From contig JAQGHF010000003.1 in NCBI GenBank assembly GCA_028288995.1, positions 186,001 through 250,000 on the forward strand: a DNA stretch of 64,000 nt, written 5' to 3'. Position numbers and translations under genes: made by a program. Under the pieces are notes generated by a model, which was not told the origin of the DNA, searched no databases, and saw only the letters and a list, made by a program, of their open reading frames with translations. Shown in pieces: positions 4,948 through 20,175 of this stretch. Each line of letters starts with the position of its first letter. The first letter of the stretch is position 1. The stretch comes from Candidatus Saccharimonadota bacterium (GTDB lineage: Bacteria > Patescibacteriota > Saccharimonadia > Saccharimonadales > Saccharimonadaceae).

Positions 4948-6123
4948 ATGATTAAATTGATTAAGTCGACTTTCTACAATGAAGCAGACACAAAACAAAA
5001 GCTAGTATCCTTTATTTCTAACGCTGAAATGCTCAGCTTCGGACCGCAATGCAGCGAGTTTGAGCAACGATTCGCAGCGTGGCAAGGGCGTAAATATTGC
5101 ATCTTTGTAAATAGCGGTAGCTCGGCAAATCTTGCTATTATTCAAGCTCTCCTTAATTTAGGAAGAATAAACAAGGGTGACAAAGTTGGGGTCTCAACTC
5201 TTACTTGGTCCACAAATATAATGCCTCTCATCCAACTTGGTCTACAGGTTGTGCCTATCGACGTAGAACTTGATACATTAAATGTTTCTAGTGCACAATT
5301 ACGTAAAAGTATTAAACAGCAAAAGCTTAAAATGCTCTTCCTCACTAATCTGTTGGGGTTCTGTGACGACATAGATATGATCCGCTCAATTTGCGAAGAA
5401 GAAGGTATTCTTTTAATTGAAGATAACTGCGAATCTCTTGGGACAGTCTATAAAGGCGAAAAACTTGGCAACTTCGGGCTTGCAAGTACTTTCTCATTCT
5501 ACGTTGGACACCATATGTCCACTATCGAAGGTGGTGCTATCTGTACTGATGACGAAGATGTTGCCAATATGCTCAGTCTTGTTCGTGCCCACGGCTGGGA
5601 TCGTAACCTTGCAGAGAAGTCCCAAGAAAAGATTCGCACTGAACACAATGTAAACAGTTCATTCTACTCACGCTACACATTCTACGATTTAGGCTACAAC
5701 CTCCGACCAACTGAAATCAACGGATTTATCGGAAACACACAAATTCCTTACCTTGATGAAATCGTAGAAACTCGAAAAAATACCTTCCTAGAGATTGCTG
5801 ATAAGATCTATTCACAACCTGACCGTTTTTACCCCGTTAGGTATGACCATATCGACCTGATTTCTAACTTCGCGTTCCCCGTTATCTGTAAAACAAAAGA
5901 GATTCGTGATGAATTAGTTGAAAAATGTAACGGCATACTAGAATTACGACCAATCGTTGGTGGTGATATGACAATGCAGCCGTTCTTTGGCAAGTACGAA
6001 AAAGGTGAATTCCTCAAAAATTCAAACGCCAGTCTTATTCATGAGCAAGGTCTATACTTTGGCAATAACCCTGAACTGACGGCAGACGAAAAGCGACAAA
6101 TTATTGCTATTTTTACTCAATAG
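4948..6123 (+). CDS. ColD/RfbH-type PLP/PMP-dependent sugar 3-dehydratase (DegT/DnrJ/EryC1 fold)
   Basis: A 391-residue fold-type I enzyme: cofactor-phosphate segment SGSSANLA (residues 56-63), acidic EDNCESLG (158-165), and the active-site segment TFSFYVGHHMSTIEGG (181-196). Aminotransferases of this family carry a catalytic Lys in the last segment; here it is His-His (residues 188-189). Replacement of Lys by His is the mark of the 3-dehydratases ColD (GDP-4-keto-6-deoxymannose 3-dehydratase) and E1/RfbH (CDP-sugar 3-dehydratase), which use PMP to remove the C3 hydroxyl instead of leaving an amino sugar. Because gmd and rmd are nearby, a GDP-mannose-derived substrate is the more likely. It is followed after 6 nt by a GT4 gene. 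Confidence 0.85.
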   Translation: MIKLIKSTFYNEADTKQKLVSFISNAEMLSFGPQCSEFEQRFAAWQGRKYCIFVNSGSSANLAIIQALLNLGRINKGDKVGVSTLTWSTNIMPLIQLGLQVVPIDVELDTLNVSSAQLRKSIKQQKLKMLFLTNLLGFCDDIDMIRSICEEEGILLIEDNCESLGTVYKGEKLGNFGLASTFSFYVGHHMSTIEGGAICTDDEDVANMLSLVRAHGWDRNLAEKSQEKIRTEHNVNSSFYSRYTFYDLGYNLRPTEINGFIGNTQIPYLDEIVETRKNTFLEIADKIYSQPDRFYPVRYDHIDLISNFAFPVICKTKEIRDELVEKCNGILELRPIVGGDMTMQPFFGKYEKGEFLKNSNASLIHEQGLYFGNNPELTADEKRQIIAIFTQ

Positions 6124-6129
6124 GTTTTT

Positions 6130-8448
6130 ATGAAAATTGGAATACTTATCGACAGGCTCAATGTAGGCGGAGTCGAGAAGATTGCTATCGAGCAAGTTCT
6201 GTCACTGCGACAGGCAGGTCAAGATGCATATCTTGTTGTATTGCGAAAGAAGGCAGTTGTAGCTAATGCATTTCCAGACTTGCTCAAAGACGTCCCGATA
6301 ATTTATTTAGACGAGAGACTACCAAAATTATTAAAGGGGTCTTTTACATTCCCAGGTTTTCACTTTTTTTCACTTTTCCACCTAACATATGCCCTCTTTC
6401 TGCCTTTTGTAATAAAAAGGCATGAATTCGAATATATCATTGCTCACGGAACGTACACATCTCTCTCAGCGGCCACAATAAGCTCTCGAAAGAAAATTCA
6501 ATTCTCATCGTTTATATGGGATCCCGCTTCCTATATCTTAAGCAGGGTTTATACAGGAAAATTCCTATCACCAATTCTCTCGTTACTCAAGAGAGTTGCA
6601 ACTGCTTTCGATACATACTTAATTAAGAAAATGGACCATGTGCTGGTGGGTGGAAAGGCACACAACGCCTTCATAGAGAGTGTAGTGCCGGGCAAATCAA
6701 TAGAAGTAATTTATCCATCTGTTCATCCCGCTAATAAGCAGTCGAGGAAAAAGGATTACATACTAATGGTTACTGCGTGGAAAGATGGGAAACACCCAGA
6801 ATATATCCTTGATATCGTACAACGTATCCCCAATGTACATATAAAAATGGTAGGAAAATGGATAGACCCACAATATAGAAAGGGCTTTGAAAGGCTTATC
6901 AAACAACATAAACTTGAAAAGCAAATAGACGTTGTTGGTGAGGTAAATGAAAAGCAACTATCTAAGTTTTATGCAGACGCCCGCGTGCTCCTACAAACAA
7001 ATGATGATCGCGGCTTCGGTATGCCTGCTATGGAGGCGGCGGCTCATGGAACAACTTTCGTCATCCCTAAAGGCCAGGGAGTTGGTGAATTATTTACCAA
7101 TGAAATCCATGGTTTTTACACAAAGGAAAACGATACAGAAAAAATAGTACAGCTCCTTGAAAAACTTATCAATGACAAGGAATTAGCGACCAACCTTGGA
7201 CAAAGTGCTATGGGGGTGGTAAAGGACAATTATTCCTGGCAAAAACACGCAGACAAGCTCATCTCTGTTATAAAAGAGAGTCTCGGACAACAAAACAAAA
7301 CGCTTCATGTCCTATTTACAGGTCTTGTCTCACCGACCATGTTAAGTGGTGGGGATCAATTGTTTCTTGATATAGCCCCTCGCCTTCCAAAGGACTTATA
7401 CATAACCATCATTACACCTCACTTCGCTAAAAGTCATTGGGATAAAATTGATCAATCAAATATCACCCTAAAATACCTTAGGAGAAACGTTTTTGAGTTT
7501 AGCGATAATCCACTATTCACCTTCTGTTCGTATGTCATACGCTCCCTACAGACTTATAAGATCTTAAGAAAAGAAAATATTCAGTCAATTTATTCTTGTT
7601 CAGATGTTGCCTACGCAGATGTTTGGCCGGCATATTTTGTTACAGGGAATAATCCGAATATTAAATGGCTCACGAGGATATACCACGTTTTGCTACCGCC
7701 AGATAGCCGTCAGGGAAATCATCTTGTAAACCTTATTGTTTTTAAACTCCAGAGACTTAGTTTTTGGATGATGAAGAGAAGAAGCTCAAGAATTCTCGCA
7801 CTAAATCAAAAGCTCTACGACGAAGTATTATTTCTGGGATTTCCTAAAGATAAGCTTGGAATATTGGGCGCTGGCATTGACTTTAAGGCAATAAATTCAT
7901 TTAAAGCAGAGAAGAAGTATCCATATGACGTTGCTGTTCTAGGAAGGATTGCACCAGTTAAAGGTATTTTTGACATGGTTAAGATATGGAAAAAAGTACA
8001 TGCCGAACTACCAGACGTACGACTTGCATGGATTGGTGGTGGTGGTGATACATACAAAAATCAATTAACCAGTATGCTTATCGAAAACAGTCTCACGGAT
8101 AGTTTTAGTCTTACGGGGTTTGTAGATAAAGATATCGCGTATAGTATACTCAAAAGTGCTGAGTTATTCTTGTGTCCAGATCATGAAAATGGCTGGGGAT
8201 TAGCTGTTTGCGAAGCGATGGCCTCTGGTCTGCCTGTTGTTTCATACGATCTCGATATATTCGGAAGTGTATACAAAAAAGGGTTCCGTACAGCCCCCCT
8301 TTACGATACCGAGGGTTTCGCTAATATCATTATTGAACTCCTAAAATCAGAGGGCAAACGCAAGCAACTGGCAAGTGAAGCAACAAAGCAAGCTGAACAG
8401 TTTGATCATCAACAAGTTATTACGGATTTAGTGGGTTATCTCTACTAA
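6130..8448 (+). CDS. Two GT4 glycosyltransferases fused in one chain
   Basis: A 772-residue protein with two complete GT-B modules. Module 1 (residues ~1-385) starts MKIGILIDRLNVGGVEKIA and has the donor-site motif RGFGMPAMEAAAHG near residue 295. Module 2 (~392-772) restarts with LHVLFTGLVSPTMLSGGDQ and has ENGWGLAVCEAMASG near residue 680. Both keep the E-x7-E type signature, so both may be active. Normal GT4 enzymes are 350-400 residues, so this is a true tandem fusion and might add two sugars in sequence. The gene follows the ColD-like gene by 6 nt, with no separate promoter visible. Confidence 0.9.
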   Translation: MKIGILIDRLNVGGVEKIAIEQVLSLRQAGQDAYLVVLRKKAVVANAFPDLLKDVPIIYLDERLPKLLKGSFTFPGFHFFSLFHLTYALFLPFVIKRHEFEYIIAHGTYTSLSAATISSRKKIQFSSFIWDPASYILSRVYTGKFLSPILSLLKRVATAFDTYLIKKMDHVLVGGKAHNAFIESVVPGKSIEVIYPSVHPANKQSRKKDYILMVTAWKDGKHPEYILDIVQRIPNVHIKMVGKWIDPQYRKGFERLIKQHKLEKQIDVVGEVNEKQLSKFYADARVLLQTNDDRGFGMPAMEAAAHGTTFVIPKGQGVGELFTNEIHGFYTKENDTEKIVQLLEKLINDKELATNLGQSAMGVVKDNYSWQKHADKLISVIKESLGQQNKTLHVLFTGLVSPTMLSGGDQLFLDIAPRLPKDLYITIITPHFAKSHWDKIDQSNITLKYLRRNVFEFSDNPLFTFCSYVIRSLQTYKILRKENIQSIYSCSDVAYADVWPAYFVTGNNPNIKWLTRIYHVLLPPDSRQGNHLVNLIVFKLQRLSFWMMKRRSSRILALNQKLYDEVLFLGFPKDKLGILGAGIDFKAINSFKAEKKYPYDVAVLGRIAPVKGIFDMVKIWKKVHAELPDVRLAWIGGGGDTYKNQLTSMLIENSLTDSFSLTGFVDKDIAYSILKSAELFLCPDHENGWGLAVCEAMASGLPVVSYDLDIFGSVYKKGFRTAPLYDTEGFANIIIELLKSEGKRKQLASEATKQAEQFDHQQVITDLVGYLY

Positions 8449-8500
8449 GGCAAAGACTAGTTTAAAATAACCCCATAAATTGATACAATAGCCTAAACTA

Positions 8501-9448
8501 ATGCGAACCAAGAAATCCCTTATAACCATAGTCATTCCAATCCACAACGAAACTGGAAGTATTAACTGGCACCATAAGAAGATCATCAAGCACGTTAATT
8601 CTCTTAGTTTAAATTATGAAATACTCTACATCGACGACGGGAGTACAGATAATTCGCTCGAACTTGTTAAATTACTAGCCTCTACAGATGATCGCGTAAA
8701 ATACATTTCATTCTCAAGAAATTTTGGTAAAGAAGCTGCTATCAGTGCAGGGCTTAAAAAAGCGCTAGGTGATGCAGTACTTATCATTGACGCAGACGGT
8801 CAACACCCCATCGAACTTATTGGTAAGTTTATAGAAAAATGGCACGAGGGGTTCGACATAGTTGTTGGCGTCCGCCGAAGCAATCAAGGTGAAGGTTTTA
8901 TTAAATCGGCTGGATCACGCTTGTTTTACTTCCTATTAAAATCAATCGACAACGGCTATGATGTTACGCCAGCTTCAACCGACTTTAGGCTAGTGGATCG
9001 ACTTGTCATTGATCAATATAATAAGCTGACTGAGCGAAACCGTATCTCTAGAAATCTCATGGATTGGCTCGGGTTTAAGAAAACAACCTTACCTTTTGAT
9101 GCACTAGCACGCCATGCCGGCAAAGCATCTTATTCATACTCAAAGCTCGTCAAACTAGCAATCGATGGAGCTATTAAACATTCTACGCGACCACTAAAGT
9201 TTATTGGTGTACTTGGATTATTAATATCTTTCGTAACCATTATTGCAATGATCTTCCTATTCGTAGAAAAGTACATTCTCCTTGATCCTCTGCACCTTGC
9301 AGTAACAGGGACCGCTCTGCTTGCACTATTCCTCAGCTTCTTAGTTGGAATCGTCCTTACCTGCCAAGGCCTTCTTGCTCTATATCTTGAGAATGTATTT
9401 TACGAGACACAAAACCGTCCGCTATACGTTGTACGTGAGGAAAAATAG
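8501..9448 (+). CDS. GtrB/DPM1-like GT2 with two C-terminal membrane helices
   Basis: A 315-residue protein. N-terminal GT-A domain: ITIVIPIHNETGSI, LYIDDGSTDNS, the DxD as IDADGQHP (around residue 97), and LMDWLGFKK near 186. Two hydrophobic helices follow at ~238-260 and ~272-298. This is the layout of polyprenyl-phosphate glycosyltransferases (GtrB, ArnC, DPM1) that load glucose, mannose or a similar sugar onto undecaprenyl phosphate for use outside the cell. A TACAAT at 8484-8489 ends 11 nt before the ATG, so the mRNA is nearly leaderless. A GT4 gene follows directly at the stop codon. Confidence 0.9.
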   Translation: MRTKKSLITIVIPIHNETGSINWHHKKIIKHVNSLSLNYEILYIDDGSTDNSLELVKLLASTDDRVKYISFSRNFGKEAAISAGLKKALGDAVLIIDADGQHPIELIGKFIEKWHEGFDIVVGVRRSNQGEGFIKSAGSRLFYFLLKSIDNGYDVTPASTDFRLVDRLVIDQYNKLTERNRISRNLMDWLGFKKTTLPFDALARHAGKASYSYSKLVKLAIDGAIKHSTRPLKFIGVLGLLISFVTIIAMIFLFVEKYILLDPLHLAVTGTALLALFLSFLVGIVLTCQGLLALYLENVFYETQNRPLYVVREEK

Positions 9449-10546
9449 TTGAAAATCCTCTGGCTCACCTGGAAGGACCGCGGCAACCCTGCTGCCGGGG
9501 GCGCCGAGACTGTTTCCGGCGAAATCATGGATCGGCTTATTCGTGATGGGCATAAAGTAAAAATAATTACTGCCAGATACCCTGGCGCGACTGGCTACGA
9601 ATTATGCGATGGTGCAGAATATTATCGAATCGGTAACCGATATACTGTGTACCTCAAAGCACGACAGTTATTTAAATCGAAACTCAAAAACTGGGCAGAT
9701 GTCATTATTGACGAGATGAATACGCTTCCTTTCGGAGTTGCCTACTACACCTCAACTCGAACAATACTGTTGAACTACCAGCTAGCGAGAGAGGTTTGGT
9801 TTTATCAAATGCCTTTCCCTATCTCACTCGTAGGCTATCTTTTCGAACCTTTTATGCTTCGATCAATGGCAAAGAAATATCCTTTGGTTGCAACGGAATC
9901 ACTCAGTACAAAGAAGGATTTGAATAAATATAGTTTCAAAGACGTGCGCACATTTCGTGTCGGTATAGCCCTGAATCCGTTGGAAGAGCTTCCTATAAAA
10001 TTAAACCCCTCTACTGTCCTCTCGCTCGGTGCAATACGCCCAATGAAGCGGACACTTGATGCTGTAAAGAGTTTTGAAGTGGCAAAAAGTAAAATGCCCG
10101 CTCTACAAATGATCATTGCAGGAAGCGATGGCGGTAAGTACGCAACAGAAGTAAAAAAGTATATAGCTCAATCACCATATTCTGATTCTATAATAGTTAT
10201 GGGTCGAGTTACCCCCGAAAAAAGAATTGAGCTTATGAAAGATGCCGCAGTGATACTGGTAACTTCAATAAAAGAAGGCTGGGGACTTATTGTCACAGAA
10301 GCAGCAAGTCAAGGAACGCCAGCAATCGTTTATGATACGGACGGTCTGCGCGATAGTGTGAGACATAATATTACAGGTATCGTTTCAAAAAATAATGATT
10401 ATAAAGTCATGGGGAACGAAATTTTCAACCTTCTCAAAGACAACACTAAGTATAACCTTATGCGACTAAATGGCTGGCAGTGGAGCAAAGAGTTTACTTT
10501 TGAAAACTCTTATGGTGATTTTCTGAAAGTTATCAATAATAAGTAA
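9449..10546 (+). CDS. GT4 family glycosyltransferase (TTG start)
   Basis: A 365-residue GT-B enzyme. It begins KILWLTWKDRGNPAAGGAE, an acceptor-domain start with the Gly-rich GGAE loop, and carries EGWGLIVTEAASQGTPAIVY near residue 275 as the donor-binding E-x7-E motif. The start codon is TTG at 9449, directly abutting the previous TAG stop at 9446-9448, with GTGAGG about 10 nt upstream as ribosome site inside the preceding gene. Zero spacing means translation is probably coupled to the GtrB-like gene. Acceptor and donor are unknown. Confidence 0.9.
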   Translation: MKILWLTWKDRGNPAAGGAETVSGEIMDRLIRDGHKVKIITARYPGATGYELCDGAEYYRIGNRYTVYLKARQLFKSKLKNWADVIIDEMNTLPFGVAYYTSTRTILLNYQLAREVWFYQMPFPISLVGYLFEPFMLRSMAKKYPLVATESLSTKKDLNKYSFKDVRTFRVGIALNPLEELPIKLNPSTVLSLGAIRPMKRTLDAVKSFEVAKSKMPALQMIIAGSDGGKYATEVKKYIAQSPYSDSIIVMGRVTPEKRIELMKDAAVILVTSIKEGWGLIVTEAASQGTPAIVYDTDGLRDSVRHNITGIVSKNNDYKVMGNEIFNLLKDNTKYNLMRLNGWQWSKEFTFENSYGDFLKVINNK

Positions 10547-10626
10547 TCAACCTCTTATGAGACCTTGGCAAATGATACCATTTATGGTTAAATTGGAGCA
10601 GAGCCTTAAGGTATTGGAATATCCAT

Positions 10627-11178
10627 ATGCAAATAAGAGTAAAAAACAAAAAAACTAGGAAAAAATTACTTCTCACGACATTGATTGTCGTTATTATTCT
10701 CGTGTTGGGGTATGGTGTTTTTGCCTCTCAAGCGAAAATCTGGCCATTCCTTTCAGCCAATACAGTTAATCTGAGTCCTGCATCTGATACAGAAAAGTCT
10801 ACCGGTGAGCAAATTAAATCTGACTCAGTAAACAGCAGCCCTCAACCCAGTAAACAGTCGCCAAGCAATGATGCGAATCCCTCGACCACGACTACTTCTG
10901 TTCTATTCTCTTCTACAACTCAAGACACGACGACCTATCATGTTCGAGTATTGATTGAATCAGTGCTTAATACCGGAACGTGTTCATTAACACTCGTAAA
11001 ATCAGGTCAACAAACATACACAGCAACCGCCGACATACAACCGGGACCAAGTAGCTCGACCTGTAAGGGATTTGACATTCCATTAAGTAGTATCGCCACC
11101 GGAAACTGGAATGCAACAGTAACAGTCACGAGCAGTGGCACTTCAGGTGCGGCATCTCAGGAGATTTTAGTTAAATGA
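10627..11178 (+). CDS. Membrane-anchored exported protein with Ser/Thr-rich stalk
   Basis: A 183-residue protein. After a very basic N-terminus (KNKKTRKK) comes one hydrophobic helix (residues ~15-34), then a low-complexity stalk rich in Ser, Thr, Pro and Gln (~45-105), then a small beta-rich domain of about 75 residues with two Cys (in GTCSLTLV and STCKGFD) that could form a disulfide. I recognise no family. Its stop overlaps the start of the bulb-lectin protein by 4 bp, so the two are made together and may form one surface complex. Confidence 0.75.
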   Translation: MQIRVKNKKTRKKLLLTTLIVVIILVLGYGVFASQAKIWPFLSANTVNLSPASDTEKSTGEQIKSDSVNSSPQPSKQSPSNDANPSTTTTSVLFSSTTQDTTTYHVRVLIESVLNTGTCSLTLVKSGQQTYTATADIQPGPSSSTCKGFDIPLSSIATGNWNATVTVTSSGTSGAASQEILVK

Positions 11179-13130
11179 AAATGATAAAGTTCGCACTGCC
11201 TCTTTTCATTTTCTTTGCAGTCGCTATCGGTCTGTTACATGCGCAACCAGCATCTGCTGCAGGATTTGAAGCTGGGAGAATTATTGACGACGGAGTATTC
11301 ACCGATGCGTCATCAATGGGAGTAGGTGATATTCAACAATTCTTAAATAGCAAGGTTCCTATTTGTGACACAAACGGGACTCAGACATCCGAATACGGTG
11401 GAGGCACACGGGCACAATGGGGACAAACCAACTATGGGCAAAGTACTTTTACCTGTCTTAAGGATTATAGCGAGAATGGACGAAGTTCAGCACAAATCAT
11501 CTACGATACAGCCCAGCAATATGGCATAAATCCAAAAGTAATATTAGTGCTTCTCCAGAAAGAACAGAGCCTTGTTACAGACACTTGGCCACTCAACATC
11601 CAGTATCGTTCAGCGACGGGCTATGGTTGCCCTGATACATCTGTTTGTGACTCGCAATATTATGGTTTAACAAATCAGGTTACTTGGGCGGCAAAAATGT
11701 TTCGGGCTATCATTAACGATAGCCCTACTTGGTACACACCTTACGTCCTAGGCGATAACTACATTCAATACAGTCCAGACGCATCTTGTGGTGGTAGTAC
11801 TGTCACAATAGTAAACCGCGCAACTCAAGCTCTATACAATTACACCCCCTACCAGCCGAACGCAGCGGCAATTGCAGCGGGATGGGGATCGGCACCGTGT
11901 GGAGCATACGGGAACAGAAATTTCTACCTCTACTACACGAATTGGTTTGGTAGTACGACTGCTACCCCCTCCTATGGTTATAGCGTCGTTTCAAGGAACA
12001 TCTATTCAGACTCGACATACCAGACAAAGATATCTGATACACCTACCGTAGAACCTAATAGCAGCTTTTATGTAAAATTAGTTATTAAGAACACAGGCAA
12101 CCAGGTTTGGTATAAGAATAGTCTCAATCTTGGTGGTGATGGACCACAGAACCGTGCGTCAGCGTTTGCTTCAAACACCTGGTTTAATGCAGCACGTCCA
12201 GCAACTATTAACGAAGCTAGCGTTGGGGAAGGTGGAACAGCAACCTTTAACTTCAAGATGACCGCTCCGACATATTTAGATACTTATTCGGAGCAATTTG
12301 GCGTACTTATTGAAGGGAATAGATGGCTCAGCGGAATCCTTACGATCCCCGTGACCGTTGCATCATCAAGTCCATATTATTCAATCAAACCAGTCTCATT
12401 TGACGCATATAGTGATGCAGCCCTTAAAACAAAGCTAAACCCGTCGGGAGTATCTAAATATACTGGAGATAAGATTTATATAAAAGCCGTTCTAAAAAAT
12501 ACCGGAAATCAAACATACCCAATAAGTCTTACAAAAATAGCACCTACAAATCCGCTTAACCGATCGAGTATATACGCGGACAGTTCCTGGGCCAATTCAA
12601 GTAGAGTTGTGGGAGCGCAGGAAGGTAATATCGCACCAGGCGAAAACGGTACATATGTATTCTCAATGACCGCCCCCAGCACACCTCAAACTATATCTCA
12701 GGAACAATTTGGAGTGGTAATTGAAGGTCAGCAATGGCTCACCGACAATATCGGCACGGTCTCAATCCAAACCGTGCAGCGACCGCCATCTGAGCTAAAC
12801 GAGAACCAAACACTACAAATAGGCGACTCACTCCTGTCTTATGACGAACGGTACTGGCTTGTCTTTCAGGGTGACGGTAACTTAGTGCTCTACTCACCCA
12901 ATCGTGCCGTATGGTCTACTCAGACACAAGGAAAAGGTGGCGTAAGAGTTGTGATGCAGAATGACGGCAACTTGGTTATGTACCGAGCAGACTGGACGGC
13001 GATCTGGAACAACAACTCGGCAGGAAAAGGTACTGGCTCAAGATTGATTCCACAGACAGATGGTAACCTGGTTACGTATACCTCAGCCATGAAGCCTACA
13101 TGGTGGTCAGGAACTAACGGTCAACAGTAG
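11175..13130 (+). CDS. Secreted lysozyme-like/Ig-like/bulb-lectin surface protein
   Basis: A 651-residue exported protein. A signal peptide (~1-28, ending near ASA) precedes an alpha-helical domain (~30-255) with IIYDTAQQYGINPKVILVLLQKEQSLV, which resembles a lysozyme/SLT-type helical pair with a possible catalytic Glu; activity is not proven. Two beta-sandwich repeats of about 120 residues (~268-395 and ~400-535) share the pattern KNTGNQ...W and EQFGVxIEGxxWL, like NBR1-type Ig domains. The C-terminus (~545-651) has three blocks, QGDGNLVLY, QNDGNLVMY and QTDGNLVTY, the mannose-binding QxDxNxVxY motif of bulb-type (GNA) lectins. It may bind or cut host or own surface glycan. Start ATG overlaps the preceding stop. 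Confidence 0.85.
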   Translation: MKMIKFALPLFIFFAVAIGLLHAQPASAAGFEAGRIIDDGVFTDASSMGVGDIQQFLNSKVPICDTNGTQTSEYGGGTRAQWGQTNYGQSTFTCLKDYSENGRSSAQIIYDTAQQYGINPKVILVLLQKEQSLVTDTWPLNIQYRSATGYGCPDTSVCDSQYYGLTNQVTWAAKMFRAIINDSPTWYTPYVLGDNYIQYSPDASCGGSTVTIVNRATQALYNYTPYQPNAAAIAAGWGSAPCGAYGNRNFYLYYTNWFGSTTATPSYGYSVVSRNIYSDSTYQTKISDTPTVEPNSSFYVKLVIKNTGNQVWYKNSLNLGGDGPQNRASAFASNTWFNAARPATINEASVGEGGTATFNFKMTAPTYLDTYSEQFGVLIEGNRWLSGILTIPVTVASSSPYYSIKPVSFDAYSDAALKTKLNPSGVSKYTGDKIYIKAVLKNTGNQTYPISLTKIAPTNPLNRSSIYADSSWANSSRVVGAQEGNIAPGENGTYVFSMTAPSTPQTISQEQFGVVIEGQQWLTDNIGTVSIQTVQRPPSELNENQTLQIGDSLLSYDERYWLVFQGDGNLVLYSPNRAVWSTQTQGKGGVRVVMQNDGNLVMYRADWTAIWNNNSAGKGTGSRLIPQTDGNLVTYTSAMKPTWWSGTNGQQ

Positions 13131-13170
13131 TTCTTAACCCTCCAAACTGATATAATAACCTTCAGTTGTT

Positions 13171-14328
13171 ATGAAAAAAGTTTATATTGAGGGCTTAGCG
13201 CTCGTTGAAACACATTTTAGCGGTATCGGCCAATACGTACTTGGCATACTAAAAGGACTCGATGATCTAATAGGTCTCGAGCAGTCAAGTAATCAAAAAA
13301 CTCCTATTATTAAGGTCATTATTCCTTACGACAAGGTAAAGAAGTTTAAATCATTTGGATTCAGACACATTGGCTACAAAACGATGCCACTATCACTTCG
13401 GTACTTCGCAGGTCTCGATCATAGAGGTAAATTATTCCCTATCGACTTATGGTGCGGGCGAGGCTTTTACGTCTTCACTCGTTTCGCCGCTATGCCCCTA
13501 GCATTCAGCAAATACACGGCAGTTATCTACGATATATCATTTGAACTTTTCAGTCAGTTCTCTGACGAATCAAATGCTAAGTTTCTTTCTCCTCGGACCA
13601 AATCGACAGTTGCATCCACGAATACTATTTTCACTATCTCACAGAATGCAAAAAAAGAAATTATCAACTTCTATAAAGTTGACCCGTCTTCGGTCATCGT
13701 TGCCACACCAGCATCGGATCAAAAATACCTATACCGTCGAAGTGAAGAAGAGATCGAAAGAGTAAAACAAAAATACGGCATCAAGGGTCGCTACATTCTT
13801 TCTCTTTCAAACCTCGAGCCCCGAAAGAACCTCGATGGACTTGTCGACGCGTACTGTGCACTTCCGGATTCAGTTACTAATGAGGTTAGCCTGCTACTTG
13901 TTGGCGTTAATGGCTGGAAAACTGAGGCACTTTTCCAAAAGATCATCGGTAAAGTTGATGAGGGGAAACGCATCATACGTCCTTCGGAATATATTGATGA
14001 CATAGACAAGCCCGCGATACTCTCAGGTGCTGAAATGCTTGTATACCCAAGCCACTACGAGGGGTTTGGTATGCCCCCACTTGAGGCTCTCGCTTGTGGC
14101 ACACCGGTTGTTACTGCAAACAATTCCTCATTACCAGAAGTAGTTGATGAAAATACGATCCAGGTAGACAGTAGGGATACAAAAGCCATAACTGCTGCCA
14201 TAATCGAGACAATGAACGACAAGACTCGACGCGAAATAGCTATTAAGTCGGGACCTGCACAAGCAGAGAAATTTAGCTGGTTAGAGTCGGCTAAAAAGTA
14301 TTATAACGTTATTATGGAGAATGTTTGA
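13171..14328 (+). CDS. GT4 family glycosyltransferase
   Basis: A 385-residue GT-B enzyme. The N-terminal half has FSGIGQYVLGIL, the glycine loop typical of mannosyl- and rhamnosyltransferases of this family. The donor half begins SLSNLEPRKNLDGLV (residue ~213) and holds HYEGFGMPPLEALACGTPVV (~295), with both acidic residues of the E-x7-E motif. A TATAAT at 13151-13156 lies 14 nt before the ATG, so the leader would be only about 7 nt. The stop codon shares one base with the next gene's ATG (TGATG), giving a coupled pair of related transferases. Confidence 0.9.
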   Translation: MKKVYIEGLALVETHFSGIGQYVLGILKGLDDLIGLEQSSNQKTPIIKVIIPYDKVKKFKSFGFRHIGYKTMPLSLRYFAGLDHRGKLFPIDLWCGRGFYVFTRFAAMPLAFSKYTAVIYDISFELFSQFSDESNAKFLSPRTKSTVASTNTIFTISQNAKKEIINFYKVDPSSVIVATPASDQKYLYRRSEEEIERVKQKYGIKGRYILSLSNLEPRKNLDGLVDAYCALPDSVTNEVSLLLVGVNGWKTEALFQKIIGKVDEGKRIIRPSEYIDDIDKPAILSGAEMLVYPSHYEGFGMPPLEALACGTPVVTANNSSLPEVVDENTIQVDSRDTKAITAAIIETMNDKTRREIAIKSGPAQAEKFSWLESAKKYYNVIMENV

Positions 14329-15617
14329 TGAATATAGGTATAGACCTGACACCACTACAGACACACCATAAATTCCGTGGTATTGGTGCAGTTATCATAA
14401 ACTTCATTAATAATCTTAGCGATGAAGACAAATCGACAAATCACTTCGTATTGTTTCTTTTCGAAAGATATGAAGACGAGGCTTTGAATCTTCTAAACTT
14501 TTCAGGAGTCTCCCACGAAATACGTTACACCAGGGAGCCAAAATACATCATGCTACCCGGCAGGCTAAGACTTCTGAGTAAGGTATTCTATAAATTAAGA
14601 GGATTATTTGAGTATGCGTTTGGTGATCCTCGGATTAAAGGCTCTCAGCTTAAGGGGGTCAACCGCTATATTCAGTTCGATCAAAACCAAAAACTTCCTC
14701 GTGGAGCAAAGAGGATCGCAGTCCTTTTCTTACACGACCTCATCCCGTACATACTCGAGAGCGACTATCTCAAGAAGTATTCGACCGCGCGCGCCGGTGG
14801 CGCTTCAAGAAAGTCAGCGCTCAAGTCAGCCGTTAAACGATACCAGTATTTTTATAAAGTTAAGATTAACACTATGCGTGCAAGGCATATGATCGCAAAC
14901 TCCGAATACACAAAAAAGGATTTTATCAAATATACACATGCTTCTGCGAAGAGAGTCTTTGTAGCCTATCTGGGCGTTACAGTATCTGAAGATAAGATAA
15001 CCTCAAACCCGGGTTTTACGGACCACCAGACAACACTTTGGGGCACAGTAAAGCGCCCGTTAGACCTCACTAGAAAACCTTTCATCCTTTATATAGGCGG
15101 GACAGACAGCCGACGAAGGATGGTTGACCTCATTGCTGCGTTTTATAATTTGCGAGCTCGCGGTGAAGAAATTTCACTTGTCATGGCGGGTGATGAGATG
15201 GCTGGCATCGCCTCAATTAAAAATCCCGAGCTGCAAAGCTACCTGAAGAATAATCCATCGTATTTAGATGACATGCACCAGCTTGGATTTGTAGACGAGA
15301 CACAGAAGAGATGGTTATATGAACACAGCCTAGCCTTTGTATTTCCGAGCTCTTACGAGGGCTTTGGACTACCAATCATAGAGGCTATGGCTTATGGATC
15401 TCCTGTTATAACGTATAAGAATACGGCCATCGAAGAAATCGCGAAAGATAAAGTACTTTATGCAAGAGATTTCCTCGGGATCTCACACGAAGTCGAGAGG
15501 CTCTTTAGTGATAGGAAACTGGCCAACGAGTTGTCGCGCGAAGGAATCCCTTATGCACGCAAGTTCACCTGGGACCAAACCGTTAAAGACGTATTTAAAG
15601 TCTTACATAAAAAATAG
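14328..15617 (+). CDS. GT4 family glycosyltransferase
   Basis: A 429-residue GT-B enzyme. It starts with NIGIDLTPLQTHHKFRGIGAV, has FILYIGGTDSRRRMVDLI at the start of the donor domain (~250) and YEGFGLPIIEAMAYGSPVI (~345) as the E-x7-E motif. The ATG at 14328 is preferred to the TTG one codon earlier because it overlaps the previous TGA in a TGATG coupling and has GGAGA upstream at 14316-14320. Length is slightly above family average because of an insert around residues 90-130. The last codons and the stop lie in the left arm of a bidirectional terminator. Confidence 0.9.
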   Translation: MNIGIDLTPLQTHHKFRGIGAVIINFINNLSDEDKSTNHFVLFLFERYEDEALNLLNFSGVSHEIRYTREPKYIMLPGRLRLLSKVFYKLRGLFEYAFGDPRIKGSQLKGVNRYIQFDQNQKLPRGAKRIAVLFLHDLIPYILESDYLKKYSTARAGGASRKSALKSAVKRYQYFYKVKINTMRARHMIANSEYTKKDFIKYTHASAKRVFVAYLGVTVSEDKITSNPGFTDHQTTLWGTVKRPLDLTRKPFILYIGGTDSRRRMVDLIAAFYNLRARGEEISLVMAGDEMAGIASIKNPELQSYLKNNPSYLDDMHQLGFVDETQKRWLYEHSLAFVFPSSYEGFGLPIIEAMAYGSPVITYKNTAIEEIAKDKVLYARDFLGISHEVERLFSDRKLANELSREGIPYARKFTWDQTVKDVFKVLHKK

Positions 15618-15641
15618 CTAAGTTAATTACTTAGCTATTTT
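15611..15641. terminator. Bidirectional terminator embedded in two converging coding ends
   Basis: A 13-bp perfect inverted repeat, AAAATAGCTAAGT (15611-15623) and ACTTAGCTATTTT (15629-15641), with a 5-nt loop. A-runs and T-runs flank it on both sides, so it can end transcription in either direction. It contains the stop of the GT4 gene (15615-15617) and the last codons and stop of the convergent wzt gene (from 15627). Confidence 0.85.
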
Positions 15642-16802
15642 TATTGAGAAGCCAGGGTCGGCTGGATATGGAAGCGATCTTTCTTTTTTTACCTTGAACA
15701 TAGATGCTTCGTCCCACCAGTCATATACATGTGAGTTTACATCAATAATAGAAGGGTCCAAGAAATATTCTCCATCCGAAAGTATGTTAGGGAAAGTCCA
15801 AGTAACTAGTCTGGTTACTCCCACATCCCACGTACCGGACTTGATGCCCTCGATTCGACTATTCGTACCCAACACCTCAGAACCGGAAGCCGAACGAACC
15901 CTTATTCCAATAATTGGATCCTCAACAACTTCGTTTGCCCTAATTGTTTGTTCAATTGTAATGAGTTTATCTGTAGTAGAAAGTTTCACAGATTTCGTTT
16001 GTATCTTTGTATCGCCCCAACGTTTACCTTGATGTGTGGCAATAGCGAGCTCTTCTTCGTTCAAAAAGAGTTGTGTATATGCCCGTGCAACCTCTTGTGT
16101 ATCACCAGAAGTCTTCACTTTCCCGTCATCAATAAGAACAACCCGGTCACAATACTCCCTGATCGCACCCATGTCGTGACTCACAAAAATGACCGTCTTC
16201 TTTTCTTTCTTTAACTTCTTAAAGTAGTTAAAACATTTCCTTTGGAAATCAGCATCGCCAACAGCAAGCACCTCATCGATTAAAAGAACGTCAGATTCTG
16301 CAAGGATTGTTGCGACCGAAAAAGCTAGTCGAACCTGCATACCTGATGAATAGTTTTTAAGCTTTTGATCCATGAAGCGTTCGAGTTCGGCAAAATCAAC
16401 AATCGCATCATACTTTGCTTTTATTTCATTATTAGAAAAGCCCATCAACGCACCGTTCAGGAATACGTTTTCGCGACCCGTTAACTCTGGGTTAAACCCG
16501 ACACCAAGTTCGATAAAAGGCACTAGTCGTCCATTTACGTGCACGCTACCCTCAGTCGGTTGATAGATACCCGCAATCAGCTTAAGAAGTGTGCTCTTTC
16601 CACTTCCGTTGCGCCCCACAATACCAAAAAACTCTCCCTTTTTGATCTCAAAGGAAATGTCCTCTAGCGCATGCTGAGTCTCGGCATTACCCCTCTTCTT
16701 AAAAGGGTGCGCAAATATACTTTTTACAGAATCTACCTTCTCATGTGGCAAACGAAAGTTCTTGTAAACATTCTTTACTGATACTGCTATCTCGTCATTC
16801 AT
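15627..16802 (-). CDS. wzt: Polysaccharide/teichoic acid ABC exporter ATPase with Wzt-type C-terminal domain
   Basis: A 391-residue protein. The ABC domain has Walker A GRNGSGKST (residues ~62-70), signature YSSGMQ, Walker B VLLIDEVLAVGD and the switch His in FVSHD. It is followed by a ~150-residue beta-rich C-terminal domain (from ~245), as in Wzt, where this domain recognises the finished glycan end. Shorter TagH-like ATPases lack it. With the permease directly upstream it forms the exporter that pulls undecaprenyl-linked polymer across the membrane. The permease stop lies 3 nt before this start, so they are one operon. Confidence 0.9.
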   Translation of the reverse strand: MNDEIAVSVKNVYKNFRLPHEKVDSVKSIFAHPFKKRGNAETQHALEDISFEIKKGEFFGIVGRNGSGKSTLLKLIAGIYQPTEGSVHVNGRLVPFIELGVGFNPELTGRENVFLNGALMGFSNNEIKAKYDAIVDFAELERFMDQKLKNYSSGMQVRLAFSVATILAESDVLLIDEVLAVGDADFQRKCFNYFKKLKKEKKTVIFVSHDMGAIREYCDRVVLIDDGKVKTSGDTQEVARAYTQLFLNEEELAIATHQGKRWGDTKIQTKSVKLSTTDKLITIEQTIRANEVVEDPIIGIRVRSASGSEVLGTNSRIEGIKSGTWDVGVTRLVTWTFPNILSDGEYFLDPSIIDVNSHVYDWWDEASMFKVKKERSLPYPADPGFSIKIAK

Positions 16803-16805
16803 AAT

Positions 16806-17639
16806 CTATATATCCTCCGCGAATCCGGCAGACTTTTTTCTGAAATACGTTATTGATACTACTGCTAATAAAACAACGACCGCAATAGGCACAAGATGTA
16901 TATATGGATTGCCAAATATTGAGGTTATGGTTGGTGTGCCAACGGGAACTATCGACGCACGAACATCCTGCATTATCTGAGCAGCCGGATTAAGGATCAT
17001 TAGTTTAGCGGCAGTTGGCGATGCTTTAATCACCAGTGCTATCGGATAAAGGATCGGCGTTGCATAGAATCCCGCTTGTAAGAGAAGCTCCCAAATATAG
17101 GTGACGTCCCTGAACTTCACATAGAGTGCGCTTAGTAGGAATGCTATTGAAAGTCCTAGAATAAATAATTCAACAATCAGCGGAATAATCCAAAAAATGC
17201 TCCATGACAAATCAACACCATTAAGAACGAGGAAGAAACCAACAACCACTAAATTGATTGCGAGATTAATGAGTGCTGAGAATGAGCCCGCAACAACTAT
17301 AACGTACCGTGGAAAAGATAGCTTCCTCATAAGATCGCCCTTACTAACAATGGCAGACAAACCGTTTGAAGTAACTTCTGTAAAGTAGTTCCATAGGACT
17401 ACACCGACTAATAGCAGTACCGCAGAATGGGGGGAATCAGCACCAAACTTTAAGAAATGTATGAACACAACGTAAAGAACAGCGAAGAGAGCAAGAGGCT
17501 TTAAGAGACTCCATACATAGCCAAGGACTGAGCCCTTATATCTAAGTTTGAAATCTGTTATTACAAGTTGTCTTAGGAGGATAATTGAGTAGCGATATCT
17601 ACTCATTGCTTTTGTAATGAAATTCACAATACTATCCAT
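16806..17639 (-). CDS. wzm: Polysaccharide ABC exporter permease (Wzm/TagG-like, ABC-2 type)
   Basis: About 277 residues with six hydrophobic helices. The N-terminus carries SIILLRQLVITDFKLRYKGSVLGYVWSLLKPL, an amphipathic entry plus the conserved RYKxSxLGxxWxLLxPL motif of Wzm/TagG permeases. I chose the ATG at 17637-17639; starting 19 codons earlier would add a hydrophobic run unlike the family and would run into the divergent rmd promoter. It pairs with the ATPase 3 nt downstream. Only 46 bp separate it from the divergent rmd gene, so the two transcription units share a control region. Confidence 0.85.
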   Translation of the reverse strand: MDSIVNFITKAMSRYRYSIILLRQLVITDFKLRYKGSVLGYVWSLLKPLALFAVLYVVFIHFLKFGADSPHSAVLLLVGVVLWNYFTEVTSNGLSAIVSKGDLMRKLSFPRYVIVVAGSFSALINLAINLVVVGFFLVLNGVDLSWSIFWIIPLIVELFILGLSIAFLLSALYVKFRDVTYIWELLLQAGFYATPILYPIALVIKASPTAAKLMILNPAAQIMQDVRASIVPVGTPTITSIFGNPYIHLVPIAVVVLLAVVSITYFRKKSAGFAEDI

Positions 17640-17669
17640 TATAGAGATCAGACTAGAGGTAAGCAATGA

Positions 17670-17675
17670 TATACT
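17670..17675 (+). promoter_or_regulatory. -10 box TATACT, near-leaderless promoter of rmd
   Basis: TATACT ends 10 nt before the ATG at 17686. A longer reading with an earlier ATG at 17617 would place this promoter inside the gene, so it supports the later start. Confidence 0.5.
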
Positions 17676-17685
17676 TGTAATAAGT

Positions 17686-18636
17686 ATGAGCAACACTGAG
17701 CATGAAATTGTAATTACCGGTATTAATGGTTTTGTTGGCGAGCATCTCGCAAGACAATTGAAGAATACCGGTCATACAGTACATGGTGTTGGACGCGAAC
17801 AAAAACCGAAAGAAACAGTTGCTCACCTCTTAGATAAATACACACAGTGCGATCTCATGGATCGTAAAGCCACTCGGTCCCTTTCGGTTCACAATACCTC
17901 TGCAATAATCCACCTCGCAGGATTAGCATCTGTCGCGGATTCATTTAAATTTCCTGATCGGTACAAAAAAGATAACAGTACAATGACAGACAACTTACTA
18001 TCATCAGCCAAAGAACAAGGGTTTACGGGAAGGACGGTCGTAATCAGCACTGGAGCTATTTACGACCCTAATCAGTCAATGCCTCTAAAAGAAGATGCCC
18101 TAAAAACCCAGGGGTCGCCTTACAGTGCAGGCAAGATTGCCGCAGAAGAGACCGCAAAGACCTACAAAGGAAAGGGGCTAGATATAGTAATAGCTCGTCC
18201 GTTTAATCACATCGGACCAGGTCAGGCGTCTGGTTTTCTTGTCTCAGATCTGTATGACCAAATACTTGGAACTAAAGACAGCCGTAACTCGGTTATCTCG
18301 GTAGGAAACATCAACACTCGTAGGGATTTCACTGATGTAAGGGATATCGTGAAGGCGTATGGTTTATTAGCAGATGCACCATCACTCCAATACGACACCT
18401 ATAATATATCTTCCGGAAATAGCTACTCTGGAAAAGATATATTAGACCAACTCAGTAAAGAAATGCGAATTGCTGTTACGGCAGAGATTGATCCCGCAAG
18501 AGTACGTCCAACGGATGCACCAGAAATCGTAGGTGATTCGACAAGAATTCGCGAAGAACTTCACTGGTCACCTTCTATATCACTCGAGCAAACGATCTCA
18601 GACTTTGTAACCTGGAAAAGGGACTCAGTTTCTTAA
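17686..18636 (+). CDS. rmd: GDP-4-keto-6-deoxy-D-mannose reductase (extended SDR)
   Basis: A 316-residue short-chain dehydrogenase. It has the NAD(P) loop TGINGFVG (residues ~10-17), the catalytic Ser/Tyr/Lys as VISTGAIY and YSAGK (YxxxK near residue 145), and the substrate-side blocks ARPFNHIGPGQ, RRDFTDVRDIV and RVRPTDAPEIVGD. These blocks are characteristic of Rmd, which reduces GDP-4-keto-6-deoxy-D-mannose to GDP-D-rhamnose. Its substrate is the product of gmd, 0.5 kb away on the other strand. The ATG at 17686 is chosen because the leaderless -10 and the family N-terminus agree; an earlier in-frame ATG at 17617 adds 23 residues. The 3' end overlaps the Nudix gene by 12 bp. Confidence 0.88.
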   Translation: MSNTEHEIVITGINGFVGEHLARQLKNTGHTVHGVGREQKPKETVAHLLDKYTQCDLMDRKATRSLSVHNTSAIIHLAGLASVADSFKFPDRYKKDNSTMTDNLLSSAKEQGFTGRTVVISTGAIYDPNQSMPLKEDALKTQGSPYSAGKIAAEETAKTYKGKGLDIVIARPFNHIGPGQASGFLVSDLYDQILGTKDSRNSVISVGNINTRRDFTDVRDIVKAYGLLADAPSLQYDTYNISSGNSYSGKDILDQLSKEMRIAVTAEIDPARVRPTDAPEIVGDSTRIREELHWSPSISLEQTISDFVTWKRDSVS

Positions 18637-19173
18637 AAATTTGGGGAGAGTTACTGCAAGTGCAGCAATGACATAGGTTGCATTAAATTCACCACCAAAA
18701 TCTGGCATGTCGGCAGATAGTAGGTTTACTTCACTAATAGACTCCGTCGCTTCATGAGAGACTTGCTGTATTTTTTTGGCGTTCTTTATGCGAACAATGT
18801 AAAGAACATGGTCAAGTTTTGAAGGATATTCGTACAATGTTTTAACTAATTCAACTTCATCCGAGGCATAGCCAGTTTCTTCAAGTAGCTCCTTTTTCGC
18901 TGCTTGAATTGGTGTTTCATTCTTCCCTACACCACCCGAAGGAAGATTCAGGATAACTTTATCGATTGCATATTTATATTCGAATTGAGTGATCAACTTG
19001 TTATCTGCATCAGTTGCCACAATAATTACTCCATTAGGGAGTGAAACAATACTATAATCATCAAAAATATCACCGGAGGGTAGCTGTATAGTATCTTGAT
19101 ATACCTTTAGGAACTTTGTATCAATTAGGTTTTCCCTAGAAATTCTACGCCATGGATCAGGTTTTTTTATCAT
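18625..19173 (-). CDS. Nudix hydrolase (ADP-ribose/GDP-sugar pyrophosphatase-like)
   Basis: A 182-residue protein. The Nudix box runs from residue ~82 (GGVGKNE) to KELLEETGY; the usual REUxEE is KE-LLEE, a conservative Arg-to-Lys change at the first position. The N-terminal WRRISRENLIDTKFLKVYQD region resembles ADP-ribose/GDP-mannose pyrophosphatases. It begins 3 nt after the gmd stop, in one operon, which suggests it trims or recycles nucleotide sugars in the same pathway. The exact substrate cannot be read from sequence. Confidence 0.85.
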   Translation of the reverse strand: MIKKPDPWRRISRENLIDTKFLKVYQDTIQLPSGDIFDDYSIVSLPNGVIIVATDADNKLITQFEYKYAIDKVILNLPSGGVGKNETPIQAAKKELLEETGYASDEVELVKTLYEYPSKLDHVLYIVRIKNAKKIQQVSHEATESISEVNLLSADMPDFGGEFNATYVIAALAVTLPKFLRN

Positions 19174-19176
19174 CTA

Positions 19177-20175
19177 TTACAGTTTTGTTGATTCGATAGC
19201 GAGATCGTGATCAACCATTAGTTTAACCAACCCAGGGAAGTCAACTTGTCGCTTCCAACCAAGTTCTTTTTCGGCTTTTGATGGATCACCGAGTAGCACG
19301 TCTACTTCAGCTGGGCGCATAAATGCAGGATTTTGCTTAACGTAAGGCTTCCAATCTTCGATACCAACATGTTTAAAGGCGATGTCTAGGAATTCTTCAA
19401 TTGAGTGAGTTTCACCTGTCGCAAGGACGTAGTCTTTTGGCTCGTCTTGCTGAAGCATACGCCACATACCTTCTACATAGTCACCAGCATAACCCCAGTC
19501 TCGCTTTGGCCATAAGTCACCAAGCTCAATGTGGTCTTGAAGACCAAGCTTGATTCGTGCAACTGCGTGAGTAATCTTTCGAGTCACAAATTCAACACCA
19601 CGTCGGTCACCTTCGTGGTTGAAAAGAATACCAGATACAGCAAACATCTTATAACTCTCTCGGTAGTTCTTTGTGATCCAGTAACCGTAGAGCTTCGCAA
19701 CACCGTATGGGCTGCGTGGATGGAAGGTGGAATCCTCTGTATAACCCTTTTCTGGGCGGTTATAATCAAGCCCACCGAACATTTCAGAGGTCGAAGCTTG
19801 GTAAAAACGAACTTTATTTTCAGTATCCGTTAAACGAATCGCTTCAAGCATATTCAATACACCCTTTGCGGTAACGTCGTTTGTTAACATTGGATCTTTA
19901 AATGAGTATCCAACGTGGCTAATTGCACCCAGGTTGTATACTTCATCGGGCTTTGCGGTTTGCATTGCACGGACTAAAGACGAAGCATCTGTGAGATCAG
20001 CCTCAACAAGTGTCACATAAGGGAACTCAGCTTCCATAGCTTCACGCTTGGGGTTGTGTTGACCCCTTATAATTCCAAAAACTTCGTATCCTTTTTCATT
20101 CAATAATTCAGCAAGGTGACCACCATCTTGTCCGGTGATTCCAGTAATTAAAGCACGTTTTTTAGCCTCGGCCAT
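19177..20175 (-). CDS. gmd: GDP-mannose 4,6-dehydratase
   Basis: A 332-residue extended SDR making GDP-4-keto-6-deoxy-D-mannose from GDP-mannose. It has the nucleotide loop TGITGQDG (residues 11-18), the catalytic triad region ASTSEMFG (127-134; Thr and Glu are the usual dehydratase residues), YGVAK (Tyr157, Lys161), and NHEGDRRG followed by FVTRKI, hallmark Gmd blocks. Length is slightly below the usual 340-370. The start is backed by a good ribosome site (GAGGG, about 9 nt upstream) and a TATAAT. The product feeds rmd and, by inference, the ColD-like enzyme at 4948. Confidence 0.95.
   Translation of the reverse strand: MAEAKKRALITGITGQDGGHLAELLNEKGYEVFGIIRGQHNPKREAMEAEFPYVTLVEADLTDASSLVRAMQTAKPDEVYNLGAISHVGYSFKDPMLTNDVTAKGVLNMLEAIRLTDTENKVRFYQASTSEMFGGLDYNRPEKGYTEDSTFHPRSPYGVAKLYGYWITKNYRESYKMFAVSGILFNHEGDRRGVEFVTRKITHAVARIKLGLQDHIELGDLWPKRDWGYAGDYVEGMWRMLQQDEPKDYVLATGETHSIEEFLDIAFKHVGIEDWKPYVKQNPAFMRPAEVDVLLGDPSKAEKELGWKRQVDFPGLVKLMVDHDLAIESTKL

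Follow-up and report, generated by a model that had tools for sequence, protein, structure and literature searches.

Candidatus Saccharimonadota bacterium GCA_028288995.1 probably builds a 3,6-dideoxyhexose from the intermediate that also feeds its D-rhamnose pathway. In a 64,000-nucleotide stretch of this genome (contig JAQGHF010000003.1, positions 186,001 to 250,000; hereafter the window), a surface-polysaccharide cluster encodes a predicted ColD-type 3-dehydratase together with the GDP-mannose 4,6-dehydratase Gmd and the reductase Rmd. Our favored reading, to which we assign a probability of roughly 0.6, is that the dehydratase and Rmd together would yield a D-configured, tyvelose-like GDP-3,6-dideoxyhexose and not L-colitose. 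A branch of this kind had been proposed in an initial annotation of the window, and the sequence comparisons described below support that interpretation. Pathways of this kind are known; what appears to be new is that a ColD-type enzyme from a sister subfamily is paired in this lineage with a non-epimerizing reductase.

Results

The dehydratase gene translates cleanly into 391 residues, and the translation confirms the pair of histidines at positions 188 and 189 that had been noted in this DegT-fold protein. Where DegT sugar aminotransferases have the lysine that binds pyridoxal 5'-phosphate (PLP), the window enzyme has His188 instead, and a phmmer alignment pairs this residue with His188 of ColD in the Protein Data Bank (PDB). 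The first histidine is kept in all 96 open reading frames (ORFs; 94 distinct) with at least 40% identity to the window dehydratase in the loci fetched, so the His-His pair is neither a chance occurrence nor an assembly slip; the second is replaced in five of the 96 (GHQ three times, GHN and GHI once each). As the initial annotation stated, a histidine at this position marks both ColD and E1/RfbH: in a 92-row alignment, column 188 holds His in 61/61 rows of the window enzyme's subfamily, 18/18 of the ColD clade and 8/8 of the E1 type, and Lys in 5/5 Lys-type rows. The accessible text of PMC8987622 likewise treats the Lys-to-His change as the mark of the group, within which ColD lacks the [2Fe-2S] cluster of E1 and SpnQ, and reports that ColD restores pyridoxamine 5'-phosphate (PMP) with glutamate.

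Judged by sequence comparison and a modeled structure, the protein is a ColD-type 3-dehydratase of a subfamily that is sister to ColD. Pfam assigns it to DegT_DnrJ_EryC1, and its best phmmer matches in the PDB are ColD (2GMS, 216 bits) and E1 (3BCX, 142 bits), followed at 115 bits by 9WVY, an entry named putative nucleoside diphosphate (NDP)-4-keto-6-deoxyglucose 3-dehydratase; aminotransferases score 99 bits or less in the same search. Among the NCBIfam matches listed, no family lies above its cut-off for the dehydratase, Gmd or Rmd. A quick maximum-likelihood tree of 92 hand-picked rows (supports here, and in equally quick trees of 98 and 40 rows below, are from the Shimodaira-Hasegawa-like approximate likelihood ratio test, SH-aLRT) puts the enzyme inside the 61-row subfamily with a support of 99. 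The subfamily and the Escherichia coli ColD clade unite as sister groups (79 rows, support 96), and the E1/RfbH clade (8 rows, 98) and the Lys types (5 rows, 99) stand apart from them. The columns of Trp87, Glu162, Arg253 and Glu332 read as in ColD and unlike E1, and three of the four columns that hold the iron-sulfur cysteines of E1 lack Cys in 61/61 subfamily rows, the fourth having Cys in every group except the Lys types. When an AlphaFold2 model (mean predicted local distance difference test score 95.7) was compared with the 1000 top Foldseek chains, ColD came first (Z 48.4-49.4), then E1 (45.5-45.7), then aminotransferases (44.8 or less); the rows under ColD and E1 bear the names of aminotransferases or synthases that share this fold, and a shared fold is by itself no evidence of function. 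The E1/RfbH identity, which the initial annotation had named beside ColD for this replacement, is ruled out by the absent cysteine set together with the lower phmmer and structure scores. Alignment and tree join the enzyme to ColD and not to the lysine aminotransferases, the grouping of which that annotation had been wary. Its term "ColD-like" therefore stands as far as sequence, tree and model are concerned, with the amendment that, at 35% identity to E. coli ColD, the enzyme belongs to a sister subfamily and is not ColD itself.

Gmd and Rmd proved to be as first described, their best PDB matches being Gmd (1RPN) and two entries described as GDP-6-deoxy-hexulose/mannose reductases (2PK3 and 6X3B), respectively. 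Rmd is an extended short-chain dehydrogenase/reductase (SDR) whose Tyr-x3-Lys motif is present as YSAGK. Cys109 and His179 of E. coli Fcl, which we take to be the residues of the epimerase step, are both replaced in the window Rmd and in five other aligned Rmds (L012-L015 and L025).

The genome as a whole (836,540 bases in 5 contigs, 97.97% complete) was searched for other enzymes that could act on the same sugars. PF01370 retrieved three proteins, namely Gmd, Rmd and a weakly matching 206-residue NAD(P)-binding protein, with no CDP-glucose dehydratase among them, and there was no match to Gfo/Idh (PF01408) or to PF13561 (adh_short_C2; PF00106 itself was not searched). An Fcl query derived from locus L004 matched only Rmd, at 2e-8, yet it recovers Fcl at 1.5e-151 or better in two other genomes, G283 and G108 (a third, G085, is the source of the query). 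The earlier observation that the window has no ColC-type enzyme thus holds for the entire assembled genome as searched with the Fcl query and PF01370. Among the families covered, no keto-sugar reductase other than Rmd came to light, in line with the original suggestion that Rmd, or else another reductase, may finish the sugar. The nucleoside triphosphate (NTP) transferases that were found are of the ManC type (from Pfam and NCBIfam) and the GalU type (by reading). The ManC-type gene sits beside a phosphomannomutase (PMM)-type HAD gene, both so labeled by Pfam and NCBIfam, some 6-8 kb ahead of colD and just beyond the window, so that GDP-mannose supply, Gmd, the dehydratase and Rmd all lie in one region. 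A branch from one intermediate to rhamnose and to a dideoxy sugar fits such a small set of sugar-nucleotide enzymes. That this is a genome of the candidate phyla radiation (CPR), as initially judged, agrees with the nearest named relative of the dehydratase (89% identity), which comes from a Candidatus Saccharibacteria bacterium.

One scan of genome contigs returned 551 relatives of the dehydratase. The best 80 loci (52-89% identity) were kept, a selection that skews the sample toward close kin, and some of them duplicate genomes of the survey below (L012 is G137, L013 is G087, L014 is G330, L015 is G090 and L010 is G328). Many CPR groups are represented among these 80, along with Elusimicrobia, a few other groups and one record named Pacearchaeota; the subfamily gene also occurs in contigs of viral collections and in a 642-kb uncultured phage. 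Among characterized 3,6-dideoxyhexoses, the most familiar are those of Gram-negative O-antigens, according to the accessible text of PMC8987622. The initial description of the route as normally Gram-negative needs widening for the pathway genes, which are also present in many CPR genomes, a DPANN-type archaeal contig and a Streptomyces plasmid with the order gmd, subfamily dehydratase gene, GDP-L-fucose synthase. Gmd is encoded in the fetched stretch at 31 of the 80 loci and within 2.5 kb at 24, and gmd, rmd and colD are adjacent in L015. The commonest neighbor is an SDR with both Cys109 and His179 of Fcl, found within 3 kb in 38/80 loci (a count that we prefer to the 37/80 within 2.5 kb given by a rougher alignment). 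With near SDRs and more distant Rmds scanned, 24 loci have only SDRs without the pair and 18 have no SDR; the pair-less loci include L026 and L074, with Fcl-like proteins that have the His and a Val for the Cys, and L011, where the Cys is kept and the His is not.

In the 98-row SDR tree, nine subfamily-adjacent reductases cluster with the ColC proteins of E. coli and Paracoccus with a support of 100; all but one of the nine come from records named Elusimicrobia or Elusimicrobiota, and the genes of six of them directly adjoin or overlap that of the dehydratase. Since ColC is the partner specific to colitose synthesis, its presence beside these dehydratases argues strongly, if indirectly, that the subfamily uses the same substrate; with epimerizing reductases so common beside its wider membership, colitose is probably the usual product elsewhere. 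A single metagenomic contig, the Pacearchaeota record (L077:9089-12268, plus strand), holds one 1060-residue ORF in which an SDR lacking Cys109 and His179, a dehydratase (55% identical to that of the window) and Gmd are fused, possibly a three-step GDP-dideoxysugar synthase. Given the Gmd and epimerizing-reductase neighbors, some of them true ColC, and this one fusion, the substrate of the window dehydratase is very probably GDP-4-keto-6-deoxymannose. A separate non-epimerizing pairing is evident from sequence in L064, L083, L085 and L086, where the gene order is dehydratase, Gmd, SDR and the SDR lacks both epimerase residues (Ile/Ala, and Gln, in their places).

We also surveyed the order, with 294 genomes per search including the window's own and E-value limits, on which the presence counts depend, of 1e-60 for ColD, 1e-40 for Rmd and Fcl and 1e-80 for Gmd. 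The dehydratase was found in 7, Rmd in 51, L004-type Fcl in 7 and Gmd in 60. Gmd accompanies the dehydratase in all seven (hypergeometric 1e-5, uncorrected for relatedness). Rmd without Fcl is the pattern where the dehydratase is 73-100% identical to the window's (G000, G087, G090 and G137), Fcl without Rmd that of G085 and G283 (57%), and G108 (53%) has both. Two further near relatives are G328, with only Gmd and Rmd at 1e-10, and G330, with Gmd and two tandem Rmd copies. All six near-clade genomes (G000, G328, G087, G090, G330 and G137; 73-100%) thus carry Gmd and Rmd, and none of the six has an SDR for which Fcl or ColC is the clear best reference; the additional SDRs of G087, G090 and G137 are by reading of the UXS, GalE, RmlB and RmlD types, with one in G137 unclassified. 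A genome titled Levyibacteriota (G329, locus L011; dehydratase 79% identical) has Gmd, an Rmd-like protein (39% identical to the Rmd of L003 and 37% to that of the window) and seven more SDRs, not all classified. At 1e-20, a first survey detected no dehydratase in the 16 listed members of the genus or in the 44 of the family; the larger draw adds one positive genome of the family, G283 with its 57% type. With 46 of the 51 Rmd-positive genomes lacking ColD, Rmd next to ColD is not independent proof of a joint pathway, and co-occurrence as proof by itself was dropped. Locus L257 of a ColD-positive genome has, beside Gmd, two tandem Rmd paralogues (14255-15184 and 15824-16759; 46-47% identical to the window Rmd), one of which may serve the 3-deoxy substrate.

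From the 46 dehydratase-negative Rmd clusters of the order, 23 were selected, non-randomly, for long contigs and a high Rmd score, and compared with five dehydratase-positive clusters, the window itself being left out. Wzm, Wzt and Rmd are encoded in 23/23 negative clusters and Gmd in 22/23 (the L261 stretch ends before Gmd), and the dehydratase and the two-domain GT4-GT4 glycosyltransferase in none. The positive clusters have the dehydratase in 5/5 and Wzm, Wzt and Rmd in 4/5, those of the L010 genome lying on another contig (L256); a relative of the GT4-GT4 protein or of one of its halves is present in 4/5, against 0/23 negative clusters (Fisher 2e-4, for these chosen loci). Other genes differ by degree: the GT2 at 8501 occurs in 5/5 positive and 7/23 negative clusters, the GT4 at 9449 in 4/5 and 2/23, the membrane protein at 585 in 4/5 and 3/23, the membrane protein at 3640 in 3/5 and 1/23, and the GT4 at 13171 in 4/5 and 18/23. 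One negative cluster, L274, has the first three of these together. There is no ColD-specific Rmd clade in a 40-row tree, where the neighbors of the window Rmd include its dehydratase-negative kin G001 and G154. By these comparisons, the combination of ColD and the GT4 enzyme resembles a plug-in on a conserved Gmd-Rmd-Wzm-Wzt locus, and the simplest history would be that the resident locus later acquired the dehydratase and its glycosyltransferase.

The remaining genes of the cluster are listed in Table 1. The GT4-GT4 protein is a candidate transferase for the dideoxy sugar; it has no relative at 1e-30 in the phage collection. In E. coli, gmd is neighbored by a gene for a GDP-mannose mannosyl hydrolase, and by analogy the Nudix hydrolase of the window may act on GDP-sugars. 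A 651-residue protein (11175-13130), kept in 20/23 ColD-negative and 4/5 ColD-positive clusters, has an N_BRCA1_IG domain and a weak B_lectin match below the cut-off and may bind the surface glycan. Beyond gmd, which is adjoined by the alpha and beta genes of succinyl-CoA ligase (20252-22172; both, or SucC, have the same place in the related stretches L256, L257, L258 and L259), lie a GtrA-family membrane protein (PF04138, 22262-22660) and an 854-residue protein (22657-25221) whose N-terminal part, hydrophobic by reading, is fused to a PIG-L-type deacetylase domain. The GtrA-family protein is close to GT2 enzymes, which suggests a polyprenyl-phosphate-linked glycan decoration.

Table 1. Predicted genes and key codons of the polysaccharide cluster, in window coordinates
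Position	Strand	Feature	Basis
585..2774	-	729-aa membrane protein (by reading)	no Pfam/NCBIfam match; recurs with ColD clusters
2816..3643	+	GT2 glycosyltransferase	PF00535
3640..4884	+	membrane protein, flippase-like by reading only	no Pfam/NCBIfam match
4948..6123	+	ColD-type GDP-4-keto-6-deoxymannose 3-dehydratase (predicted), DegT/aspartate-aminotransferase fold, 391 aa	phmmer vs PDB, tree, AlphaFold2 model
5509..5514	+	His188-His189 codons CACCAT; His188 at the PLP-binding Lys position of Lys-type relatives	translation, alignments
6130..8448	+	two-domain GT4-GT4 glycosyltransferase, directly 3' of colD	Pfam glycosyltransferase group 1 domains
8501..9448	+	GT2, polyprenyl-phosphate sugar-transferase type (PgfS/ArnC-like)	NF047588 245 bits, under cut-off 500
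9449..10546	+	GT4 glycosyltransferase	Pfam
13171..14328	+	GT4 glycosyltransferase	Pfam
14325..15617	+	GT4 glycosyltransferase	Pfam
15627..16802	-	Wzt-type ATP-binding cassette (ABC) ATPase with Wzt_C domain, polysaccharide export (predicted)	PF00005, PF14524
16806..17621	-	Wzm-type ABC permease, start codon uncertain	PF01061; Wzm/RfbD model 61 bits, below cut-off
17686..18636	+	Rmd, GDP-4-keto-6-deoxy-D-mannose reductase (by sequence)	2PK3 152 bits, 6X3B 134 bits
18625..19173	-	Nudix hydrolase between rmd and gmd	PF00293
19177..20175	-	Gmd, GDP-mannose 4,6-dehydratase	1RPN 352 bits; PF16363 411 bits; TIGR01472 391.5 bits, just under cut-off 415

Discussion

The pathway that we envisage would start with Gmd making GDP-4-keto-6-deoxy-D-mannose, part of which Rmd would reduce to GDP-D-rhamnose. 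The rest would enter a PMP- and glutamate-dependent dehydration in which, if the mechanism of ColD carries over, His188 abstracts a proton from PMP, the C3 hydroxyl leaves, hydrolysis releases GDP-4-keto-3,6-dideoxy-D-mannose and glutamate restores PMP. Rmd most likely then reduces C4 of this 3-deoxy intermediate, because no epimerizing ColC or Fcl was found in the genome; without inversion at C5, the product would be a D-configured GDP-3,6-dideoxyhexose. With the facial choice usual for Rmd, that sugar is 3,6-dideoxy-D-arabino-hexose, or tyvelose, and the nucleotide sugar would accordingly be GDP-D-tyvelose. A neighboring glycosyltransferase, probably the GT4-GT4 protein, would add it to a D-rhamnose-type glycan exported by Wzm/Wzt.

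Several observations count against this scheme. Rmd is widespread in the order in the absence of ColD (46/51), and the Rmds of ColD-positive genomes are scattered among those of ColD-negative ones in the 40-row tree, with no sign of specialization. Across the wider subfamily, an SDR with both epimerase residues is the usual companion (38/80). By sequence, the window Rmd is not told apart from a talose-forming reductase, and the accessible text of PMC10680097 names the product of the manno-forming enzyme lyxo, so that the C4 configuration here may be arabino or lyxo. The assembly may lack about 2% of the genome, and the search for reductases was limited to PF01370, PF13561, PF01408 and the Fcl query.

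The foremost alternative, which we consider unlikely, is that the cell makes GDP-L-colitose with an epimerase-reductase that escaped detection, either because its sequence has diverged too far or because its gene falls outside the assembled contigs. At 98% completeness the assembly leaves room for such a gene, and the Cys109/His179 reductases beside the subfamily include both E. coli-type ColC and Fcl types. However, none of the six nearest-clade genomes has an SDR with Fcl or ColC as its best reference, although PF01370 detects their other SDRs, and the Fcl query that so readily finds its targets in G283 and G108 gets nothing better than Rmd here. It is also quite unlikely that Rmd makes GDP-D-rhamnose alone, leaving reduction of the 4-keto-3,6-dideoxy sugar to an enzyme with a different fold or to a step that follows transfer. 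The frequency of Rmd without ColD, the lack of a ColD-linked Rmd clade and the restricted set of families searched would all suit this possibility, but those families hold no further candidate and the 3,6-dideoxyhexose pathways known so far use SDR reductases. Moreover, the accessible text of PMC10680097 describes C4-reductases of Campylobacter 6-deoxyheptose clusters that reduce GDP-3,6-dideoxy-4-keto-heptose in vitro, with the authors' caveat that these products have not been identified in Campylobacter capsules.

We give little credence to the idea that the dehydratase acts on another NDP-4-keto sugar (CDP-, UDP- or dTDP-linked, or a GDP-heptose). The family to which an enzyme belongs does not by itself determine the nucleotide, and a Campylobacter C3-dehydratase works on GDP-heptose (PMC10680097, accessible text), but Gmd is the only 4,6-dehydratase-like SDR found in the genome (genes for GDP-heptose were not searched), the two NTP transferases that were found are of the ManC and GalU types, and Gmd lies within 2.5 kb in 24/80 subfamily loci and is once fused to the dehydratase. 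Finally, the common fold of sugar aminotransferases makes a Lys-less aminotransferase or an inactive paralogue conceivable but very improbable, since His188 and the ColD-type columns are strictly kept over 61 rows, the tree sets the enzyme apart from the Lys types and relatives at 52-89% identity recur in 80 genome loci.

The window enzyme shares with ColD of the E. coli colitose pathway (2GMS/3B8X) the His for Lys, the fold (Z 49.4), the absence of the iron-sulfur cysteine set, the four conserved columns and the linkage to Gmd, and differs in its 35% identity, its sister-subfamily position and the lack of a detected ColC in its genome. With E1/RfbH, the CDP-4-keto-6-deoxyglucose 3-dehydrase, it shares the His for Lys and the fold, but three of the four cysteines are missing, the score is lower and no CDP-glucose dehydratase was found. 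The GDP-D-rhamnose locus (Gmd and Rmd with Wzm/Wzt export) has gmd, rmd, wzm and wzt in one cluster both here and in related genomes, to which the window adds ColD and further glycosyltransferases. The CDP-tyvelose pathway runs through a 4,6-dehydratase, E1, paratose synthase and tyvelose 2-epimerase; it would end in the same sugar if the window Rmd keeps its facial choice, whereas the proposed route uses a GDP carrier and would need no 2-epimerase. The Campylobacter jejuni GDP-3,6-dideoxy-heptose pathway, as given in the accessible text of PMC10680097, is also GDP-linked and proceeds through a 4,6-dehydratase, a PLP- and glutamate-dependent 3-dehydratase and then a C4-reductase, some such reductases taking the 3-deoxy substrate without a C5-epimerase in vitro; it differs in that its sugar is a heptose and in that the native C5-epimerase acts first. 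A survey of glycan alphabets, in its accessible part, calls L-colitose missing in the TACK group (PMC7725333), which implies that it is widely predicted elsewhere. In the literature searched, which left subscription papers mostly outside, GDP-tyvelose or GDP-D-tyvelose is not mentioned and no relevant paper connects colitose with Patescibacteria; no dedicated paper on ColD active-site mutants was found in the open literature searched.

More generally, though with somewhat less than even confidence, we suggest that the sister subfamily serves as a plug-in 3-dehydratase, with the partner reductase deciding which sugar finally results. In Saccharibacteria, Rmd would then lead to GDP-D-tyvelose or its C4 epimer without a C2 epimerase, and other CPR lineages and an archaeon would do likewise with non-epimerizing reductases, once in the form of the L077 fusion. 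If this is correct, the surfaces of small, host-dependent CPR bacteria bear a 3,6-dideoxyhexose, and one intermediate and one reductase would serve two sugars from a very small set of nucleotide-sugar genes. Such a sugar would be a candidate epitope for recognition by hosts or phages, and the dideoxy sugar associated with a ColD-like gene would become predictable from the Cys and His of its partner reductase.

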